A stretch of 38,267 bases of DNA, from positions 1 to 38,267 of the forward strand of contig JAJRQQ010000018.1 of the NCBI GenBank assembly GCA_024280155.1, written 5' to 3'. Origin of the DNA: Bacteroidota bacterium (GTDB lineage Bacteria; Bacteroidota; Bacteroidia; Flavobacteriales_D; Crocinitomicaceae). The notes under the pieces are model-generated. The model was not told where the DNA came from. It did not search any database and saw only the letters and a list, made by a program, of their open reading frames with translations. Below are positions 10,656 through 28,435 of the stretch, piece by piece. The translations under genes and the position numbers were made by a program. The number at the start of each line of letters is the position of its first letter. Within the stretch, counting starts at the first letter, position 1.

Positions 10656-12482
10656 CAATCAAAGAGATTCGAGAAAGTATCAATATTCGTATCTACGATA
10701 AGAAAAAAAAGGTTCTTGCGGGATTAACAATTTTGAATATTATAGTTTCATTGATTGCGTTATCAACCTTGGTATATTACTATGGCTATGAATTGACAAT
10801 AGAGCAAAAGGAGTTTAGTTTTTCAATTCTTGAAGCAAGTTTTGTCTTTTATATTTTTCGTTTTTTTGTGAAATTGTTTTTTGATTTCCATCCTCCTACA
10901 TTTATTAAAGACAACTGGTTTGAAGCATCTGTAATTCTTCTTCTTTTGGTTGAAGGGATTTCGTATAATTTCTTCGGAAGGATGATTATTGAACCCTTGT
11001 TTATCTACATTGGATTCAAAGATTTTGGAGCTTTTTCCATGGTCTTTATTCAAATATTCATCTTCGTTTTAATGTTGAACGGCATCTTTAAGCAAAGAAA
11101 TTATAGACCTTGGATGAAAATTCATCCCGGTTGGTTGTTTACAATTTCGATTGCAATGATGACCTTGGTAGGAGGTTTACTTTTAATGTTGCCCGAAATG
11201 TCAATCTATGAGAATGGAATGAGTTTTATTGACTCCCTTTTCCTTTCGATGTCTTCCGTGAGTGTTACAGGGCTCTCTACGGTAGATTTAGCTTCTGACT
11301 TTACATTTAAAGGACAAATGATTGTCCTGATTTTAATAAAACTTGGTGGATTGAATACAATTGCTTTTGGAGCATTGATGTTAATTGTTGCCAAATTTGG
11401 TGTGGGAATTAAATACCATGAAGTCATTGAGGATTTTGTAAATAAAGATTCGATTCTTAAAGCAAATTCTATGCTTCTTAAAAATTGTACTATGGGCTAC
11501 AACAATTGAGGTATTAGGAATTGTAGCATTGTTTATTGGTTTTGGAAATGAAGGAGTTTTTGCAGATACAGGAAATCGATTTTATCAAGCTGTTTTTCAT
11601 GGGGTTTCAGGATTTAATAATGCAGGACTTTCTATTCTAGAAGGAGGAATGATGCATCCAGATGTAATCAACAATACATTTGTGCATACTGTAATTATGA
11701 TTTTATTTTTCTTCGGTGGTTTTGGTATGATATACATGTTTGATTTGTTTGAAATTAAACGTTTAAGAGAAAGAATGAGAAAACCATGGAAAACCATTGA
11801 GTTTGGAACAAAAATTTCCCTTTACTTTACCCTTGGGTTATTGTTCTTTGGAGCACTGGTATTTATCATCTTTGAATGGAATAATGGATTGAGTGATGGA
11901 AGCGTCACGGATGCTGTAATAAAAGCATTGTTTGAATCAATGACAACGAGGAATGCAGGGTTTAATGTAGTCGATACTTCAGCTTTAACTCTTCCTGTAA
12001 TGATTGTTTTCTTATTTCTCATGTTTATTGGTGCATCTTCTGGTTCTGCCGGAGGTGGTATTCGAACATCTACTTTTGCAATCATGTGGGCATCATTAAT
12101 TTCAACAGTAAAAGGAAGAAAACATACCGAATTATTCAAGCGAACGATCACGAACGATACTATTTTGAAAGCCTATGCTATTTTCTTGTTTTTTGTGATA
12201 GGAAATGTGTTCGGAACTTTTGCCTTAGTAATTACAGAACAAGATCTAATCGCTTCAGGGCAGTATGATTTTATGGACATTGTCTTTGAACATGTCTCCG
12301 CAGCAAGTACAGTAGGGCTATCTACCGGGTTAACTGCTGATTTAAGTGTTGGAGGAAAGATTATACTCATCATAGCCATGTTTATTGGTCGTGTAGGAAC
12401 GTTAACATTGGCATACCTTGTCGGTAAGAAAGTTATTAGTAGAAATTATAAATACCCAGAAGGCCATACAATGGTCGGTTAA
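10652..12482 (+). pseudogene. trkH: TrkH-family potassium uptake protein, interrupted by a frameshift
   Basis: A TrkH/KtrB-type K+ channel subunit is encoded in two frames, 10652-11509 and roughly 11485-12482. Deleting one A from the run at 11480-11484 restores a continuous protein of about 609 residues reading ...SMLLKIVLWATTIEVLG.... All four selectivity-filter P-loops are readable: SVTGLST, NNAGLS, RNAGFN and STVGLS. The frameshift falls between the first and second loops, so a truncated product could not be a channel. The N-terminal 150 residues add extra membrane helices before the core, as in several Bacteroidota homologues. No TrkA/KtrA gating partner lies in the window. It may be a true mutation or a consensus error. 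It overlaps the kinase gene by 4 nt. Confidence 0.88.
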
Positions 12483-12486
12483 GAGA

Positions 12487-13221
12487 ATGGAAAAATCAAA
12501 AGTGGTAAAACCATACAATAAGAAAGAGACTTCGAAGAAAGAAGAAGTTGCAGAAATGTTTAACAATATCTCGAAAAAATATGATTTTTTGAATCACTTC
12601 CTTTCAATGGGGATTGATAAATTATGGAGAAAAAAAGCGATTAAAATTCTTGGAGAAGTACAGCCGAAAAGAATTTTAGATATTGCTACAGGAACTGGGG
12701 ATTTTGCTCTAGCAGCATTGAAATTGAACCCAACAGAAGTGGTTGGTGTTGATATTTCTCAAGGAATGCTTGATGTAGGAATTGAGAAAATGAAAAAGAA
12801 AGGGGTCGACAACATCATCAAAATGAAATTGGGAGATTCTGAAAAATTACCTTTCGAAGATGCTTCGTTTGATGCTTTTACGGTTGGGTTTGGTGTTCGG
12901 AACTATGAGAATCTTGAAAAAGGTCTTGGTGATATGTTGCGTATTCTCAAGAATGATGGAAAAGCCGTAATTTTAGAGTTTTCAAAACCAAAAAGCTTTC
13001 CAGTAAAACAAGTTTTTGGTCTGTATTCTAAAAGAATTATTCCTTTTTTAGGAAAAACAATTTCGAAAGATAAAAGAGCGTATGCGTATTTGCCCGAATC
13101 AGTTGAAGCATTTCCAGAAGGGCAAGAATTTATGGATATCATGTCTAAAGTTGGATACAAAAACGTGAAAGCGATTCGTGTATCTGGTGGAATAGCAACA
13201 ATTTATTCAGGAGTAAAATAA
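12487..13221 (+). CDS. ubiE: Demethylmenaquinone methyltransferase (UbiE/MenG)
   Basis: This 244-residue SAM-dependent methyltransferase catalyses C-methylation of demethylmenaquinone, the last step of menaquinone synthesis, which is the quinone expected in Bacteroidota. Typical features are [20 protein letters not shown], the SAM-binding [25 protein letters not shown], the [26 protein letters not shown] region and the C-terminal [17 protein letters not shown]. The frame is open upstream into trkH, but MEKSKVV is the natural start, only 4 nt past the trkH stop. PorT follows, an order I associate with other flavobacteria. Confidence 0.94.
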
Positions 13222-13961: not shown

Positions 13962-15526
13962 TGATAACAACAATTCAATTTCAGGTAACACCTGAACAAG
14001 CAAAAGACGATGCGTTTTTAAAGCTTAAAATTCGAAAAGAATTAAAATTAAAATCAAATGATTTTACATTTCAATGGCGAAAACGCTCTCTTGATGCACG
14101 TCAACGTAAAATAAAGATGAATTGTACTTTCAATGTAGGGACATAAGGAGAGGACTTGCCTAAAATTAATGAAAGTTTTCAACCCAAGAATGAATTGAAT
14201 GGCGAAGTTGGAATTGTTGGTTTCGGTCCTGCGGGAATGTTTGCAGCATTGAGAGCACTTGAGTTGGGTTTAAAACCAATCATTTTCGAACGAGGAAAAG
14301 ATGTTCGTTCTAGAAGAAGAGATTTAGCTATTCTCAATAAAGAGTCTATCGTTAATCCAGAATCAAATTATTGTATTGGAGAAGGTGGAGCAGGAACTTA
14401 TTCTGATGGTAAGTTATATACTCGCTCGAAAAAAAGAGGAGATGTGCAACGTACATTGGAGTGGTTTGTTCAATTCGGAGCAGAAGATGATATCCTCGTA
14501 GATGCTCACCCTCATATCGGAACCAATAAGTTGCCCCAAATTATTGTAGCCATGCGAGAAGCCATTCTTGAAAATGGTGGCGAGGTTCATTTTGAGTCTA
14601 AAATTACCGATTTCTTTTCAGAGAATGGTAAAATCACAGGACTAGAGATAAACGGCAAGGAAAAAAGAAACTTTGAGAATGTAATTCTAGCAACTGGGCA
14701 TTCTGCTCGAGATATTTTTGATTTAATTCATAAAAAAGGTTGGCAGTTGAATGCGAAATCTTTTGCTCTTGGAGTAAGAATTGAGCATCCACAAGAATTG
14801 ATCGATAAAATTCAATACCACGGACGAGTGAATGATGATTTTATTCCACCGGCATCTTATAGTTTGGTAACCCAAGTGAATGGTCGAGGAGTGTATTCTT
14901 TTTGTATGTGTCCAGGAGGAATTGTTGCACCATGTGCAACGGCTGAAGGCGAAGTAGTAACAAATGGTTGGTCTCCTTCGAAAAGAAATAATCCTTTTGC
15001 GAATTCAGGAATTGTAGTCAGTATATCTCCCGATGATTTAGAAGATAAAAGTCCGTTTGCTTGTTTGAATTTTCAGAAAGAAGTGGAGCAAAAATGCTGG
15101 GAAATGGCTGGAAAAGAACAAAAAGTCCCTGCACAAAGATTGTTGGATTTTATTGAAGGAAAACAATCGAAAGATCTACCAATAAGTTCTTACCAACCAG
15201 GAATGACTTCTCTAGATTTGAATGAAGTATTACCAAAGATTATTTCAGATAATTTAAAAGAAGCCTTTTTGTCTTTTGGTGAAAAAATGAAAGATTTTAT
15301 GACAAATGAAGCGGTTATTCATGCGCCAGAATCAAGAACATCTTCTCCGATACAAGTTCCAAGAGGAAAAGATTTGCAGCATCCAGATGTAAAAGGATTG
15401 TATCCTTGTGCAGAGGGTGCAGGTTATGCAGGAGGTATTATTTCTGCCGCTATTGATGGAATGAAATGTGTGGATGAGATTGTGAAAAAAGAATATTTTT
15501 ATTATTTTTACAAAAAAAACAGATAA
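13961..15526 (+). pseudogene. FAD-dependent dehydrogenase (COG2509-like), interrupted by in-frame TAA
   Basis: A 521-codon reading frame is broken by one TAA at 14144-14146, with no frame change. The first 61 codons match the N-terminal domain of the uncharacterised FAD-dependent dehydrogenases (PEQAKDD...RKRSLDARQRKIK). The remainder is the FAD part, with the Rossmann motif VGFGPAGMFAA, an acidic FERGKDVRSRRR, PESNYCIGEGGAGTYSDGKLYTRSKKRG, DAHPHIGTNKLP and a C-terminal CAEGAGYAGGIISAAIDG. The only ATG near the second part lies inside the FAD motif, so a separate downstream gene would need the TTG at 14156. Substrate unknown in the family. The start overlaps the porT stop by one base. Mutation, readthrough or consensus error are possible. 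Confidence 0.82.
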
Positions 15527-18500
15527 ATGGTTAAATTATTCTCAATATTAATATTAATTACCTTTAGCTTTAACGGATTTAGTCAAAATGTACCAATGTA
15601 TTCAAAATACGAACATACATTCAATTTTCAATCATTAAGTTTGAGTGAGGCACAATTAATTAATAATAAAAATCCATTTGATAAAAATGAAATAATTGTT
15701 CAAATAAATATAACAAGACCTAACGGTGATATTGACACTATTAATGCCTTTTATTATGAGGATTATGTTATTGTAGATGATATTAATAATCACCACAACA
15801 AATGGCCTTTCTTATCTAACCAGCAACTCTTTTCTACAAATAATTTTGTATGGAAATTTAGATATTCCCCAACTGTTACCGGAGTTTTTAATTATAGTAT
15901 ACGAGTTATTTTACCTAATGAAAATCTTAATCTTTTTTTAGAAAGTGGAAGTTTCAATTGTTTTTCTTCACAAAACAAAGGTTTTGTTAAAATGGTTAAT
16001 GAACAGTTCACTTTTAATAATGGTGAAATATTCAAACCTGTTGGTATTAATGTTAATGTATATCCCCCATGGTCACAAAATGGACCAAAAGTAAACTTTT
16101 ATGATTTAATGTTCAAGAGGCTACATGATAATGGAGGGAATTTTGCTAGAATATGGGTCAATTTTTGTGGGTCGATGTCACTTGTAGGTGTGCAGGATTT
16201 TAGAAATAACATTTTTTTTGAAAAATTTTCTTTGGAAGATTCTTACGTTTTTGACAGGATTTTGATGTTAGCAGAGTATTATAATGTTAAGTTACAAGTT
16301 TGTTTTTTTTCAGCTAATAATTTTAATACAAACGATATAAATGGTTATTCTTTTTGGTCAAACTATAACTCTTATAATGTTGTTAATGGAGGGTCTTGTG
16401 TTAATCCTGTTGATTTTTTTAGTAATATTACTGCTTTAAGACAACAAGAAAACTTTTTCAAGTATGTGATCGACAGATGGGGCTATTCAACCTCTATTCA
16501 ATCTTGGGAGTTCTTTAATGAATTAGATTTCCTTTTACCAAATGGTATTAGTACTAATGATTATAACGTTATAAATTGGCACCATGATATGTATTCTTTA
16601 ATTAAAGGATACGATATAAATCAACGAGCCATTACTACTTCGTTTGGTGGAGGTGGAGATTCCCCCACCCCTTTTATGATAAATGTTATTAATACTGTAG
16701 ATTTCTCTTCAGTTCATAGGTATACAGACCCTATTAGTAACCCTAATCAATTAAGTTATGATGTCTATAAGTCAAGTGTTAATAATTATCGTAGTTTAAC
16801 TAACGTACCTATAACAATTGGAGAAGGGCAATGCTTTATGCAACCTCACTTGTATCCTGGTTTTGATTCTGTTGCTTTGAACTATCATTCTGACTTATGG
16901 AGTACTTTGTTTATGGGGTCTGGTCCCTTATTTTATTGGAGTTATGATATGTTGATTAAAAGAAATTCTCCGACTATGGAATCAACAAATTATTTTAAGC
17001 AATTGAAAGGTATTCGTGAATTTATAAATTTAATCGACGATGGAGAAAATTTTTTATATAAAACGATTAATCCCATTAGTAATGATGGTTTAAGGTCTTT
17101 TTATATGCAGGATAATGTGAAATCAAAACTTTATGGTTGGATTCAAGATGAATCTTTTACTATAAATAATTTAATTGATTATTCTAATGGTACCACTGTT
17201 GATTATTTAATTGATTTTGATATTTCTCTTATGCCTATAAGAAGTTCTCAGGTGAAGCAACTTAAGTTGAATAATCTACCCAACTTAGGTCTTTATAAAG
17301 TATTGTGGTATGACACAGAAACAGGTGATAATGTTGGAGTTGATTATTCTGTTTCAACAAATACGAAAACGATTTTACTCAATTTACCTAATGAATTTAG
17401 TTTGTCTAAGTATGGTGATATTGCTTTCGTGATTGAACTTGTAGATTGTGGTTATGATATAGAAAGAATTGCGCCAACATTTTATAATGATGATGATGTT
17501 CAGATTTTTACTGAAATTAAACTGCAAAATAATAAAATATTTTACACAAGAGCAGATGGTGTAATTTATCATAAATATAAAGATGTTCAGACTGGAAGTT
17601 GGGTTTCTAATCCTTTGTGTATACAAGCCCCTAAAATGTTAAATTATACCTTTAACTCTTTTCAGATCTCGGTTGGTCTTGAGGTTATTGATTCAGATAT
17701 ATTTTATGTTTCATATAATGGTTTTTTGAATCATATTTATTATGATTATAGTTCAAATACTTGGCAATGGGAGCCTTTAAGTTTGGATGTTGATTCTAAA
17801 GCGAGAGTTGATTCTGAAGTACATTATAAAGATGGTATTGTTTATTATATTGGTAGAGATAATAAAATTAAAAGTCAAGAGTTACTTCAAGGTAATTGGG
17901 TGTGGAGTTATTTGGATTTCAGTTTGCCTGACTGCTGGAGCGGAACTGGTTCATTTACTATTTCAGAATCTTTTTCGTCACTGATTTATTGTATTTCTAA
18001 TACGGCATTTCAAAAATTTGAGTTAGTAAGCTCAAACTCTGAAGTAATTAGTATAGGATCAACCTATAATTTTATTAATTCTTCCTCTAAATTGAGGGAA
18101 ATTGACAATGGTTTTTACTACGTTAGAGAAGATGGTCGAATTATTTGTTTTATTTATTATAATAATTCTTGGTTGTTTTATTGGGTTGCTCCTAACGCGC
18201 CTAGAGTTAAGGAAGGTTCATCAATAGTGTTAAATAAACTCGCCAACTATTCATACACTTTATTGTATTCTTCAATAGATAATAATATTATAAAACTGAG
18301 TAAGAGTCCTTCTTCTTCTTCTTCTTGGGATTATAAATTTTTTAATTTGAATTTTTCTCATTCATATGGTGTTAATACCCAATTAGTTTCTAATGATGAA
18401 TATATTTTCTATGTTGGTTATGGAATTGATAATTCTTATAATGTATTTGATAATCATTTTATTTTTGGTTTGAAAAATAATTGTGCTACTGTCGATCCAA

Positions 18501-23380: not shown

Positions 23381-25498
23381 TTAATCAATGTTTTTATCAG
23401 CTACGTGTTCAGAAACATTGATGATGTGATCACCTACTTTTTCTAAAGAAGAGAAGATGTTACTGTAAATTAATGCATTCTTCATGTTGTTACCTTCACC
23501 AATAGATGTGAGGTGTTCTTCACGTAATATATCACGAAGGTGGTTGAGTTCTTTTTCTTTTGCAATTGCCTTCTCCAAAGAAATTGTCCCATACTCTGAA
23601 TTTAGGTTGAAATTCATAATCTCAAAAGATTCTCCAACTACTTCAATCATTTTATTTAAACCATTTCGTTGCTCTGGAGTAAAGTAAATTTTATCACCAT
23701 CCTTTTTCTCTAACGTTTTAGAAATTTGATAGAAAATATCTCCAATTCGTTCTAAATCAGTAGTGATATTTAACATACCTCTCATTCTTGTAGAAGCTTC
23801 AATACTCATTTCTAATCGAGCAGTTTTCCCTAAGTAATCTGCAATTTCGACTTCAACTTTATCTGTAATTTCCTCATATTTCTCCAATTTAGTGAGCATT
23901 TTGTATTTCTCTTTTTTATCGGAAGAATTGATATATGTTTCTACAAAAACATTCATTTTAGAAGTGATTTTACCAAATTTCGCAACTTCTTTCTTTGCTT
24001 CTAGAATACATAATTCAGCAGTAGAGCCGAGTGGACCATTAATAAAATCTAATTTGAATTCTTCATCAGATTCTCCTTTTGATTTAACAGTTCTTTCTGC
24101 TAAACTCACCAATTGAGGTACAAACCAAATCATTAATAATACATTAAGGAAGTTAAATGATGTGTGGAATAAAGCAATCGTTGTTCCAGCGACAGCAGTG
24201 TCTGTATATGGATCTCCAGTTACAATTAAAGATAACCCTTTAAGAAAGATTGGAAATACCAAGAGCATCCATGTTACCCCAATGATGTTGAACATAGAAT
24301 GAATTCTCGCAGATCTTTTCGCATGTACATTTGCAATCGTAGAGGCAATTTCTGCTGTGATTGTTGTACCAATATTCTCACCTAATACCATCGCACAAGC
24401 AACTTCAAAAGGAATTGTTCCTGTAGAAACCATGGCTAAAGTTAAAGCCATTGCAGCAGAAGAGGATTGAATGACAATCGTAACTAATGCTCCCAATAAT
24501 ACAAACATTACTGGTCCGTACCAAACATCTTTGAAGTTAATAAAAAATTGAACAATTTCTGAACCAGCGTCTAATGCAGGAACAGAGTGTTTCAATACAT
24601 CAAGACCGATAAACAAGATACAGAATCCAAAAATTGCACTTGCCCACGCTCTCGCTTTCCCTTTTTGGATAAATAATAATGGTGCAGCTAATGCAATAAT
24701 CATATAAGCATAACTCGAAATACTTACTTTAAATCCTAAAAGTAACACTAACCACCCTGTGATTGTTGTTCCGATGTTTGCTCCCATCATCACTCCTGCA
24801 GATTGTCTTAATGACATTAATCCTGCGTTTACAAAACTCACCGTCATTACTGTTGTGACAGATGAAGATTGTACGATAGAAGTGATTCGAAATCCAGTTA
24901 AAACACCTTTTACTCGGTTTGATGTAATAGAGCCTAACATTGCACGAAGTTTATTTCCAGACGCTTGCTGTAATCCTTCACTCATTAGTTTCATTCCATA
25001 GATAAAGAATCCTAAAGCACCAATTAGAATTAATAATTTAGCAACTCCCCATCCACGTTTTGTTTTAACTTTCGCTTCTTTCGACCAAATCATTTTTGAT
25101 TTGTCGGATTTAGCATGCTCAACGTCTCCATTTGGCGCGAAACCAACCTTTACATAATAGGTTTCATGTCCAGTTAATTCTTTTAAAGTATAACTTGTTT
25201 GGTCGATGTCTAATGGCTCAGTGTACATCCATTCACCACCTTCAATGTGTTTTTTAGCTCTTTTTTTACCAATTTTAGTGTTGTAAGTAATGATCAATTT
25301 ATCACCTCTGTCTTTTAATTCTTGGTAAGCGTCATAATCTAAAGACCAAGTAATCTTAGCACTTTCTTCACCAGCTTTTGCGTGGACATTAATAATGTGT
25401 TCTGGTTTGAATTCAAAATTACTATCTGTATCTCCACCAAATAGGAAAGATGAAAAGATGAATTGAATTGCGACTAAAATGTGAATTTTCTGAAACAT
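23381..25498 (-). CDS. Na/Pi cotransporter family protein with N-terminal FnIII-like domain and C-terminal PhoU domain
   Basis: This 705-residue protein combines three parts. An N-terminal signal or anchor segment (1-21) is followed by a fibronectin III-like domain (about 34-145: INVHAKAGEESAKITWSLD...YTLKELTGHETYYVKVGF). The transporter core (about 153-470) has the paired NaPi-II signature QSSS at 210-213 and 344-347, each in a repeat with GANIGTTIT or GENIGTTIT. The C-terminal 200 residues resemble PhoU, a four-helix regulator of phosphate systems. It should import, or possibly export, phosphate with sodium across the inner membrane, with the FnIII part in the periplasm. It diverges from the porin gene across a shared region with three paired 11-bp repeats. 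The FnIII extension is unusual compared with bacterial YjbB/NptA. Confidence 0.88.
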   Translation of the reverse strand: MFQKIHILVAIQFIFSSFLFGGDTDSNFEFKPEHIINVHAKAGEESAKITWSLDYDAYQELKDRGDKLIITYNTKIGKKRAKKHIEGGEWMYTEPLDIDQTSYTLKELTGHETYYVKVGFAPNGDVEHAKSDKSKMIWSKEAKVKTKRGWGVAKLLILIGALGFFIYGMKLMSEGLQQASGNKLRAMLGSITSNRVKGVLTGFRITSIVQSSSVTTVMTVSFVNAGLMSLRQSAGVMMGANIGTTITGWLVLLLGFKVSISSYAYMIIALAAPLLFIQKGKARAWASAIFGFCILFIGLDVLKHSVPALDAGSEIVQFFINFKDVWYGPVMFVLLGALVTIVIQSSSAAMALTLAMVSTGTIPFEVACAMVLGENIGTTITAEIASTIANVHAKRSARIHSMFNIIGVTWMLLVFPIFLKGLSLIVTGDPYTDTAVAGTTIALFHTSFNFLNVLLMIWFVPQLVSLAERTVKSKGESDEEFKLDFINGPLGSTAELCILEAKKEVAKFGKITSKMNVFVETYINSSDKKEKYKMLTKLEKYEEITDKVEVEIADYLGKTARLEMSIEASTRMRGMLNITTDLERIGDIFYQISKTLEKKDGDKIYFTPEQRNGLNKMIEVVGESFEIMNFNLNSEYGTISLEKAIAKEKELNHLRDILREEHLTSIGEGNNMKNALIYSNIFSSLEKVGDHIINVSEHVADKNID

Positions 25499-25524
25499 TC
25501 GTTTTTGTTTTTTGTTTTACTCTG

Positions 25525-25532
25525 CGAAAGTA
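25525..25532 (-). promoter_or_regulatory. Near-consensus -7 element for the Na/Pi cotransporter
   Basis: On the minus strand TACTTTCG differs from TAnnTTTG at one base and lies about 27 nt before the ATG at 25498. The nearest paired repeat (25563-25584) would be centred roughly 50 nt upstream of the predicted start, a workable activator position. Confidence 0.45.
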
Positions 25533-25562
25533 TTCTTATGATTTGGATTTCTTGTTATTTTC

Positions 25563-25645
25563 AATGTTAAGGAAATGTTATCAAATTCTAATTGTATTAA
25601 GATTATGTTAAGAGTACATGTTTAATGTTAGGCATATGTTAATTC
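25563..25645. promoter_or_regulatory. Array of three paired 11-bp direct repeats (PHO-box-like operators)
   Basis: Three 22-bp sites are each made of two head-to-tail 11-mers with core (A/T)ATGTTA. Site A is AATGTTAAGGA/AATGTTATCAA (25563-25584). Site B is TGTATTAAGAT/TATGTTAAGAG (25593-25614; its first half is degenerate). Site C is AATGTTAGGCA/TATGTTAATTC (25624-25645). Site starts are 30 and 31 bp apart, so all face the same side of the helix. The 11-bp direct-repeat layout is how PhoB/OmpR-family response regulators bind. The array fills the divergent spacer between the Na/Pi cotransporter and porin genes, and site C touches the porin -7 element. The regulator's identity is inference. Confidence 0.65.
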
Positions 25646-25649
25646 ATCG

Positions 25650-25657
25650 CATCTTTG
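25650..25657 (+). promoter_or_regulatory. Weak -7 element (CATCTTTG) for the porin gene
   Basis: CATCTTTG deviates from TAnnTTTG at the first base. It begins 5 nt after operator site C, which occupies the -33 position, as expected for a promoter that depends on an activator in place of a -33 box. Confidence 0.4.
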
Positions 25658-25702
25658 CCCCAACTTTTTAATAAATGCTAATATAAAAACAAATAAAAAC
25701 AA

Positions 25703-26980
25703 ATGAAAAGAATAATAGGTAGTACATTAATTTTATTTCTTGCAGTATCGAGTTTTGCACAAGGGCAAGAAGAAATTGTAAAAGTTAAAATAGAAAAAAC
25801 TACAAAGTCAAAACGCTCTTTTGGCTCAGGAATTATTAATTATACAGCTGAAGATGGTTCATGGAGCACTAAAATGACACTACGTTTTCAATCTTTATAT
25901 GTTTATGGTTTTAATGTTGATCCAAACGCAGGGGTAAATGGACAATATTCTAATTTTATGATTCGTCGTGCTCGTTTAAAATTTGGAGGATTCGTTTATA
26001 CACCTAAGTTGAAATATAAGTTCGAGTTAGGACAATCGTCTAGAGATGTCGGTACTTTTGCGATTAATTCAGAAACTAAAAATGCACCAGGTCTTGTATT
26101 TGATGCTGTTTTAAAATGGAATTTCTACAAAGGATTTGAATTATGGGCTGGTCAAACGAAATTACCGGGAAATAGAGAGCGTGTAATATCTTCGTCTAGC
26201 CTTCAACTGGTTGACCGTTCTTTACTGAATAGCAATTTTAATATTGACCGTGATATGGGGGTTCAACTTCATCACAAGTGGAGCATTGGTGGTAATAAAG
26301 AGAAATTCACGATGAAAGAAATGTTTGCTCTAAGTCAAGGTGAAGGTAGAGGGATTACAATCAACAATATTGGTGGATTTAGTTATACTGGAAGAGTGGA
26401 AATTTTACCGTTCGGTGAGTTTGACAGTAAAGGAAAAGATGACTACAAAGGGTCTTGTTTAAAAAGACAAGAAAAACTAAAATTAGTTATCGCTTTTGGA
26501 GGAGATTACAATGATAGGGCAGCTAAAACAAGAGGTCAAATGGGAAGTTTCATGCATAATGATAGTCCGCTGGGTTACTATACAACAAACATCACAACTT
26601 TATTTGCAGATTTAATGTTGAAATATAAAGGTTGGTCTTTAATGTCAGAATTTGCTCACAGAGATGCAACTTCTCCAATTGCAAGGAAAATGGATGGAAC
26701 TCCTACAGGGGATTACGTGCTTGAGGGCGTTTCTTTGAATGTAATGGGAGGTTATCTATTTAAAAAGAATTGGGAGGTTACTGGACGATACACTGTAATA
26801 GATTATAATTCTGACTACAATGCAAGTAAAAGTGTTGGAGATGTAATGCAATATACACTTGGTGTTTCGAAGTATGTCTTTAATCATAACTTAAAAGTAC
26901 AATTTGATGTTGGAATTTTGAAAACTGTTGGAAAAGCTGATGGTTTCTTATCTAGAATACAAATCGAAATGGAATTGTAA
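25703..26980 (+). CDS. OprO/OprP-like phosphate-selective outer-membrane porin
   Basis: This 425-residue protein has a signal peptide (1-19, ending SSFAQ) and a long beta-barrel with alternating aromatic strands. Segments such as MTLRFQSLYVYGF, FMIRRARLKFGGFVYTPKLKYKFELGQ, KGFELWAGQTKLPGNRERV and LFADLMLKYKGWSLMSEFAHRDA match the porin O/P family, whose best-known members carry phosphate or polyphosphate. The final strand ends in LSRIQIEMEL. Divergent placement from a Na/Pi cotransporter, with a shared repeat array between them, supports phosphate uptake across the outer membrane. The exact anion is not provable from sequence. Confidence 0.85.
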   Translation: MKRIIGSTLILFLAVSSFAQGQEEIVKVKIEKTTKSKRSFGSGIINYTAEDGSWSTKMTLRFQSLYVYGFNVDPNAGVNGQYSNFMIRRARLKFGGFVYTPKLKYKFELGQSSRDVGTFAINSETKNAPGLVFDAVLKWNFYKGFELWAGQTKLPGNRERVISSSSLQLVDRSLLNSNFNIDRDMGVQLHHKWSIGGNKEKFTMKEMFALSQGEGRGITINNIGGFSYTGRVEILPFGEFDSKGKDDYKGSCLKRQEKLKLVIAFGGDYNDRAAKTRGQMGSFMHNDSPLGYYTTNITTLFADLMLKYKGWSLMSEFAHRDATSPIARKMDGTPTGDYVLEGVSLNVMGGYLFKKNWEVTGRYTVIDYNSDYNASKSVGDVMQYTLGVSKYVFNHNLKVQFDVGILKTVGKADGFLSRIQIEMEL

Positions 26981-27080: not shown

Positions 27081-27767
27081 ATGAAAATTAAAATATTATT
27101 GGTTGAGGATGATGCAAGTTTAGGTTATATTATTTCAGATCAATTGAAATCTGATGGTTATGATGTTACACTTTGCATTGATGGGGCAGATGGATTTAAA
27201 AGATTTAATGAAGAAGATTTCCATTTGTGTATTCTCGATGTGATGATGCCAATTAAAGATGGTTTCTCGCTTGCAAAAGATATCCGATCAGTTAATACTC
27301 AAATTCCGATCTTATTTCTTACCGCAAAATCAAACGATGAAGATAAAATTGCAGGGTTCAAAGCAGGTGGAGACGATTATCTTACAAAACCTTTCAATGT
27401 AGAAGAGTTGCAACTTCGAGTTTCAGCTTTGTTGAGGAGAGTGAGTATTCAAAAAGAGGAGAAAGAGGACGTAATTGAAATTGGAGAGTACCTTTTTGAT
27501 ACACTGAATTTTAAATTATCGCACAAAAATTTTGAAAAAGTATTGACAAAAAAAGAAGCGAAAATTTTAACTATTCTTCGCAAGTTCATTAATCAAGTGT
27601 CGCCAAGAGAAATTATTTTGACAGCCGTTTGGGGACAAGATGATTATTTTGTTGGTCGTTCGTTAGATGTTTTTATCACTAAATTGAGAAAATATTTGAA
27701 AGAAGATAAAAGAATAAAAATAACAAATGTACACGGAATTGGTTTTAAATTAGAGGTTGAAAAATGA
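27081..27767 (+). CDS. OmpR/PhoB-family response regulator (RprY-like), no adjacent kinase
   Basis: This 228-residue transcription factor has a receiver domain (1-118) with acidic pocket D10/D11, phospho-acceptor D53 in ILDVMMP, T81 in FLTAK and K103 in LTKPF. A winged-helix DNA-binding domain (about 130-228) has the recognition region FVGRSLDVFITKLRKYLKED and the wing NVHGIGFKLEV. The closing segments resemble RprY-type regulators of Bacteroidota. No histidine kinase lies in the window; the next gene is tsaB, overlapping by 4 nt. Regulators of this class bind paired 11-bp direct repeats, so the array 1.4 kb upstream is a natural candidate target, though this link is inference. Confidence 0.9.
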   Translation: MKIKILLVEDDASLGYIISDQLKSDGYDVTLCIDGADGFKRFNEEDFHLCILDVMMPIKDGFSLAKDIRSVNTQIPILFLTAKSNDEDKIAGFKAGGDDYLTKPFNVEELQLRVSALLRRVSIQKEEKEDVIEIGEYLFDTLNFKLSHKNFEKVLTKKEAKILTILRKFINQVSPREIILTAVWGQDDYFVGRSLDVFITKLRKYLKEDKRIKITNVHGIGFKLEVEK

Positions 27768-28435
27768 GTACAATTCTTCACATAGAAACAGCAACAAAGG
27801 TTTGTTCGGTTGCATTATCAAAAGACGGTCAATTAATTCAATTAAAAGAAACTCAGGAGGATGGTTATTCTCATGGAGAAAACTTGAATCTTTTTATTGA
27901 AGAAGTGATAAGTAAAGAAGGACTTGAGTTGAAACAAATAGATGCCGTTTCAGTTACTTCTGGTCCCGGATCTTATACAGGTTTAAGAATTGGTGCTGCA
28001 ACAGCTAAAAGTTTATGCTACGCATTAGATATCCCTTTGATTGCAATTGACGCCTTAACTTCTCTGTCAGTAATTGCGAAAGAAAAATACACGAATCAGA
28101 ATTTATGTGCAGTTATTGATGCGCGAAGAATGGAAGTCTATAATTTATTCTTGGATAAGGATTTTGAACCGTTGAAAGAAATTTCTGCAGATATTATTGA
28201 TGAAGATTCTTACGAAGAATATACACCGTTTGTTTGTTTTGGAGATGGAGCCGAGAAATGAAAAGAGATTTGGAAAGAGAAAAATTGTACAATTGACTCT
28301 TCAATTCTGTCTTCTGCTAAAGGGCAGGTTCAGATAGCTTTTGAAAAGTTTAAAGCAAAACAATTTGAGGATGTTGCTTATTGGGAACCTTTCTACTTGA
28401 AAGATTTCATCGCAGGAAAGAAGAAAAAGGTTTAA
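27764..28435 (+). pseudogene. tsaB: tRNA t6A synthesis protein TsaB, interrupted by in-frame TGA
   Basis: TsaB is the non-catalytic, ASKHA-fold partner of TsaD in making t6A37 on ANN-decoding tRNAs. The N-terminal part is intact (ILHIETATKVCSVALS, SGPGSYTGLRIG at 66-77). A TGA at 28259-28261 stops translation after 165 residues. The same frame then continues for 58 codons with a normal TsaB C-terminus (GDGAEK-stop-KEIWKEK ... DVAYWEPFYLKDF) to a TAA at 28433-28435. The total of 223 codons is the usual family length. The gene is normally essential, so a consensus error or a tolerated truncation should be weighed. It overlaps the response regulator gene by 4 nt. Confidence 0.9.

Follow-up and report, generated by a model that had tools for sequence, protein, structure and literature searches.

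The PhoP box of Bacillus subtilis is built from 6-bp TTAACA-like repeats with spacers of ~5 bp. In Escherichia coli, the PHO box recognised by PhoB comprises two 11-nucleotide direct repeats, each with seven conserved and four less conserved positions, and several boxes can occur in one promoter (PMC4415409). Among the Flavobacteriales, DAP-seq and EMSA defined a motif for Riemerella anatipestifer PhoP in which the most conserved nucleotides are TTTAACA; PhoP also binds its own promoter, and phoPR expression rises in phosphate starvation (PMC9603813). The Riemerella study reported >500 peaks, with emphasis on Bat/MoxR genes, and its authors compared the motif with that of ArcA; the passages on the motif give neither a dimer consensus nor a spacing (PMC9603813). 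In a phoPR mutant, Riemerella pstS was 8-fold higher (PMC5399024).

Bacteroides fragilis PhoB, also from the Bacteroidota, binds the pstC promoter in EMSA, and a porin O and pst genes are PhoB-dependent (PMC3547664). In low phosphate with phoB present, a Na+-dependent phosphate transporter dropped 101-fold, and one porin O rose as another fell; the part of the report drawn on here gives no box sequence (PMC3547664). In Flavobacterium johnsoniae, a TonB receptor and a lipoprotein in the phoBR neighbourhood are strongly upregulated on phosphate depletion, and an adjoining OprP gene is not induced (PMC8115612). The core promoter of the phylum also differs from that of E. coli, with TAnnTTTG as the sigma-A -7 box of F. 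psychrophilum (PMC9723704).

The window considered here is the whole 38,267-nucleotide stretch of Bacteroidota DNA that was analysed. Within it, an intergenic gap of 204 bp (25499-25702) separates a Na/Pi symporter gene on the minus strand from a Porin_O_P gene on the plus strand. The features of this locus are as follows.

23381..25498, minus strand: Na/Pi symporter with a C-terminal PhoU domain, 705 aa (PF02690, 6.4e-57; PF01895, 1.4e-11; NF037997 above cut-off).
25525..25532, minus strand: probable transporter -7 box, TACTTTCG, with one mismatch to TAnnTTTG, 30 bp from box A.
25561..25582, minus strand: box A, GATAACATTTCCTTAACATTGA, the strongest dimer site, 27.6 bits with a matrix built without this genome.
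25591..25612, minus strand: box B, CTTAACATAATCTTAATACAAT, the second of three phased sites and the weakest, 11.6 bits.
25622..25643, minus strand: box C, ATTAACATATGCCTAACATTAA, 14.5 bits, in the -33 zone of the porin promoter and facing the transporter.
25650..25657, plus strand: probable porin -7 box, CATCTTTG, with one mismatch to TAnnTTTG.
25703..26980, plus strand: outer-membrane porin of the Porin_O_P family, 425 aa (PF07396, 3.8e-11, above cut-off).
27081..27767, plus strand: RprY-like response regulator of the OmpR family (NF051850 RprY best of 91 models, 268.3 bits; cut-off 370).

The gap holds five exact copies of ATGTTA (25564, 25575, 25605, 25625 and 25636) and one degenerate copy, grouped as three pairs. 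The sixth half-site, GTATTA at 25594, carries two mismatches, which makes box B the weakest of the three. A reading of the sequence alone had proposed three phased, paired 11-bp repeats here, and the matrix confirms them, with site starts at 25561, 25591 and 25622 that are 30 and 31 bp apart. Read toward the transporter, each site is TTAACATT-N3 twice (TTAACATT-N3-TTAACATT-like), so that the boxes run along the direction of transcription for the transporter and are reversed for the porin. The B. subtilis PhoP box, from a different phylum, would be close to the array in sequence. It shares the 11-bp direct-repeat plan of the E. coli PHO box, but the core is TAACATT here and CTGTCAT there (PMC4415409).

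Conservation of the array was assessed among relatives of the symporter, which is present in 54 of 60 genomes (this one included) and has a relative on 57 named contigs. Distances between TAACA copies within 250 bp upstream of transporter orthologues were counted in 79 regions, with this genome included and near-duplicates kept; eight of the 57 named loci, mostly non-Bacteroidota, were not used (L109-L111, L113, L114 and L119-L121). The top distance was 11 bp (30 pairs), and no other distance up to 40 bp exceeded the 9 pairs at 20 bp; the opposite strand gave 2 pairs at 11 bp. Smaller peaks at 20 bp, 31 bp (5 pairs), 50 bp (6) and 61 bp (7) lie near whole helical turns. These upstream-region counts, and the porin-side distances given below, include four loci with apparently miscalled gene starts (L046, L054, L034 and L039). 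The 11-bp peak, together with the pairs in the gap, bears out the OmpR/PhoB-type geometry that had been suggested for the array.

A porin match was found on 58 of 87 symporter loci, some of which are cut short. The porin is divergent from the symporter in this genus and in others, and co-directional with it in 16 loci, mostly labelled as Saprospiraceae. In seven of these 16, an exact pair precedes the porin and always faces downstream, with no pair in reverse; two of the 16 lacked upstream sequence. In many distant relatives of the symporter, the N-terminal ~150 aa are missing and the match starts near residue 150.

The boxes also keep a recurrent distance to the core promoter. Across 60 sites, the best box lay 7 bp (6 sites), 8 bp (5), 18 bp (3), 29 bp (6) or 30 bp (3) from an exact TAnnTTTG, and the nine remaining distances were 33, 40, 43, 61 and five at 127-151 bp. 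When one mismatch was allowed, as both -7 boxes of the present locus require, 29 bp (16) and 30 bp (11) became the largest classes on the transporter side. A site upstream of the transporter promoter had been predicted from the sequence, and box A, at 30 bp, falls into this conserved class. On the porin side, boxes C, B and A lie 6, 37 and 67 bp from the -7-like box, which places box C in the -33 zone as had been proposed. With one mismatch allowed, and 27 of 28 loci used (L051 gave no porin start), the same three distances recur among relatives as 37 bp (17 pairs), 67 bp (13) and 6 bp (7), beside other distances to such words of -4 bp (12), 26 bp (7) and 15 bp (5 pairs).

A 22-bp weight matrix (consensus gtTAACatTnncTTAAcATTnn) was built from 59 sites in 68 regions from other genomes; 76 regions had been reduced to 68 by removal of near-duplicates, and the present genome and two truncated loci were excluded. 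In the 38-kb window, the three sites of the array were the only ones above 9 bits. At least 10 bits was reached in 61 of the 68 training regions, as against 0.5% of shuffles; conservation of the motif upstream of orthologues is supported. The same threshold was reached, among the matches listed, upstream of 19 of 29 phoB-like orthologues (shuffles 1.2%) and of 12 of 30 PstS genes drawn from across the class (shuffles 0.9%); all three shuffle comparisons ignore kinship among loci. The remaining 10 phoB-like and 18 PstS regions scored below 10 bits. Column-permuted matrices gave a mean of 0.22 (PstS) and 0.25 (phoB-like) regions with at least 10 bits, and a maximum of 2 and 4, respectively. PhoX genes are phosphate-induced in other Flavobacteriia. 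Among the PhoX matches listed from the order, 0 of 30 had a box of at least 10 bits, in contrast with the phoB-like and PstS genes. TIGR00975 (PstS) gave only sub-cut-off matches in the order, in 16 of 199 genomes, and was not used.

The proposed link to phosphate is thereby supported, in that the matrix marks phoB-like and pstS genes. The suggestion of an operator special to this lineage was not supported, because pstS genes are marked class-wide and the core matches the TTTAACA of Riemerella PhoP. For the latter reason, the array adds a good further case to a type of control site already known. Apart from the Riemerella PhoP motif, the literature matches listed showed no consensus for a Bacteroidota Pho box; likewise, neither the dimer consensus nor its phasing with the -7 box nor the divergent three-dimer array was found in print among matches that included few subscription papers.

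Beyond the window, 382,386 bp of the same genome were scanned. Scores of 20.0, 18.4 and 15.6 bits all fell in one gap of contig C43 (12529-12774), which was scanned because its regulators and one pattern match were already known. The other scores in this sequence were 17.1 bits, inside a reading frame, and then at most 12.9 bits. The C43 gap has a PhoB-like regulator gene on one side and, on the other, a divergent gene pair that encodes a 436-aa protein taken for a lipoprotein and a TonB-type receptor. By inference, these genes correspond to the F. johnsoniae phoBR neighbourhood.

Contig C43 encodes two PhoB-like regulators close together (11857-12528 and 17146-17811), which are 57% identical and may represent a duplicated phosphate regulator. 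PhoB models rank first for both; the former scored 188.3 bits with NF053854 and 189.1 bits with TIGR02154, and the latter 217.1 and 213.6 bits. All four scores are below the curated PhoB cut-offs (270 and 296.2, respectively), hence the term PhoB-like. The nearest solved relative of a C43 regulator is RegX3 (2oqr, E 4.5e-36), a mycobacterial phosphate regulator (PMC4415409). Many genus members have two PhoB-like matches among those listed. The first C43 gene (11857-12528) is probably autoregulated through the same box.

One of ten stretches compared, L317, has the full gene order: kinase, PhoB-like regulator, lipoprotein, TonB receptor, second PhoB-like regulator, symporter, porin, RprY and TsaB. 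Other stretches show parts of it, and the counterparts in the present genome are split over contigs C13 and C43. On C43, the kinase gene that adjoins the PhoB-like regulator gene (L122, ~10820-11860, minus strand) has an interrupted frame: one frame stops after the N-box region and another continues the ATPase part, through assembly error or in reality. The TonB receptor (L122 14157-17077, plus strand) is split into two frames, 14157-16022 and 16019-17077. In relatives, L316 and L317 among them, it is a single uninterrupted frame.

The best overall reading, with a probability of about 0.82, is that the gap carries a Pho box array for a PhoB-type regulator, common to the divergent symporter and porin genes. 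The operator would be the Bacteroidota Pho box, and its binder is most likely one of the two PhoB-like regulators encoded on C43. Under phosphate starvation, a PhoR-like kinase would phosphorylate this regulator. Head-to-tail dimers of it would then occupy the sites along a single face of the DNA, as the repeat geometry and the company of genes suggest. Box A is in phase with the transporter -7 box on the helix, and from there the regulator may activate the symporter. From box C, whose place in the porin promoter is the -33 zone but whose orientation is reversed, it may tune the porin up or down. The symporter and porin would provide phosphate entry across the inner and outer membranes, respectively. 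Neither PstS (PF12849) nor Pit (PF01384) turned up in the assembly, which is 88.8% complete; this agrees with a role of the symporter as a main phosphate importer.

The orientation of box C stands against this Pho box reading, as it is wrong for a classical PhoB activator. So do the mismatch in each -7 box, the sub-cut-off scores of both C43 regulators, the lack of the box at PhoX genes, the PstS and phoB-like regions below 10 bits, the uninduced OprP gene of F. johnsoniae and a motif count at up to two mismatches that does not exceed its reversed control. By analogy, the fall of the B. fragilis transporter and the rise of Riemerella pstS in the phoPR mutant may both serve as warnings against assuming activation. 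A fuller proposal, somewhat short of an even chance, is that the array represents a PhoB operator shared across the Bacteroidota (TTAACATT-N3, twice), with a spacing from the -7 box that comes in steps of helical turns. In this genus, three dimers would then serve two facing promoters, forward on the transporter and backward on the porin, as a two-membrane phosphate switch. A usable phosphate-control motif for the Bacteroidota, with a register to the -7 box of the phylum, is gained, and the matrix could predict phosphate regulons of uncultured lineages. The conserved backward box raises the question of whether a PhoB site that points away from a promoter can still control it.

A repressing or reciprocal Pho operator would also fit a box that faces backward at the porin promoter. 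Here, PhoB would shut off a low-affinity symporter in starvation, move the porin in the opposite direction, or both. The precedent is B. fragilis, in which the phoB-dependent decrease of the transporter accompanies a 3.6-fold increase of one porin O (PMC3547664). Nevertheless, boxes at 7-8, 18 and 29-30 bp recur at the promoters of symporters, porin-symporter operons and, by eye, pstS genes, and repression of the symporter sits poorly with a genome in which no Pst- or Pit-type importer was found. Repressing or reciprocal control is considered fairly unlikely.

Binding of the array by the RprY-like regulator at 27081, one of the candidates of the sequence-only reading, or by another OmpR-family regulator in response to a non-phosphate signal, is distinctly improbable. 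Tandem repeats are a general target of OmpR-family proteins, whose DNA-binding domain occurs at eight places in this genome. The product of 27081-27767 is called RprY-like because its score is below the NF051850 cut-off. In a count that used 50 of 53 relatives, leaving out three with weak or partial symporter matches, the symporter had an RprY-like gene no more than 10 kb away in 18 of 29 genus members, the same number as for a PhoB-like regulator. Outside the genus, however, the RprY-like link was found in 0 of 21 genomes, as against 9 of 21 for the PhoB-like regulator, and the box is still there. Among the RprY matches listed, 1 of 30 upstream regions reached at least 10 bits, and that one is the symporter-RprY gap itself. 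The DNA-reading helix region of the 27081 regulator, GRSLDVFITKLRKYL, is also unlike the RTIDVHIRKLREK of both C43 regulators, and it is phoB-like and pstS genes that the box marks. On these grounds, with RprY as its best model, the 27081 regulator was rejected as the main binder. In the window (27081-28261), the RprY-like gene is directly followed by TsaB, a 165-aa frame covering model positions 1-149 of 212, and no adjoining kinase was noticed.

Chance repetition in AT-rich intergenic DNA deserves next to no weight and was rejected, since sequence, spacing, strand and distance to promoters are all conserved upstream of orthologues and neither the two exact TGTTA-N6-TGTTA pairs (either strand) nor the five ATGTTA copies were reproduced in any of 5000 dinucleotide shuffles of the gap. 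A repeated 5-mer at 11-bp spacing alone was equalled in 1.3% of 2000 shuffles. With any single spacing of 6-40 bp allowed, 24% of 1000 shuffles equalled it, and this unremarkable result makes the repeat alone suggestive and moves the weight of the argument to conservation. Genome-wide, exact pairs numbered 19, compared with 27 for the control pattern in reverse; nowhere but in the window do two of them lie close together. With up to two mismatches allowed, the genome-wide count showed no excess over the reversed control (103 versus 126), and for this reason no wide regulon is claimed. Exact TAACATT-N4-TAACATT occurs three times in the genome: in box A, at the phoB-like gene beside the C43 gap and in coding DNA.

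Eight further stretches of the genome with pattern matches were scored, and a non-coding box above 11 bits was present only on C32 (L312). This box, at 386-408, is near-palindromic, scoring 17.6 bits on one strand and 16.8 on the other. It lies ~80 bp 5′ of a 224-aa reading frame and is a possible further target.
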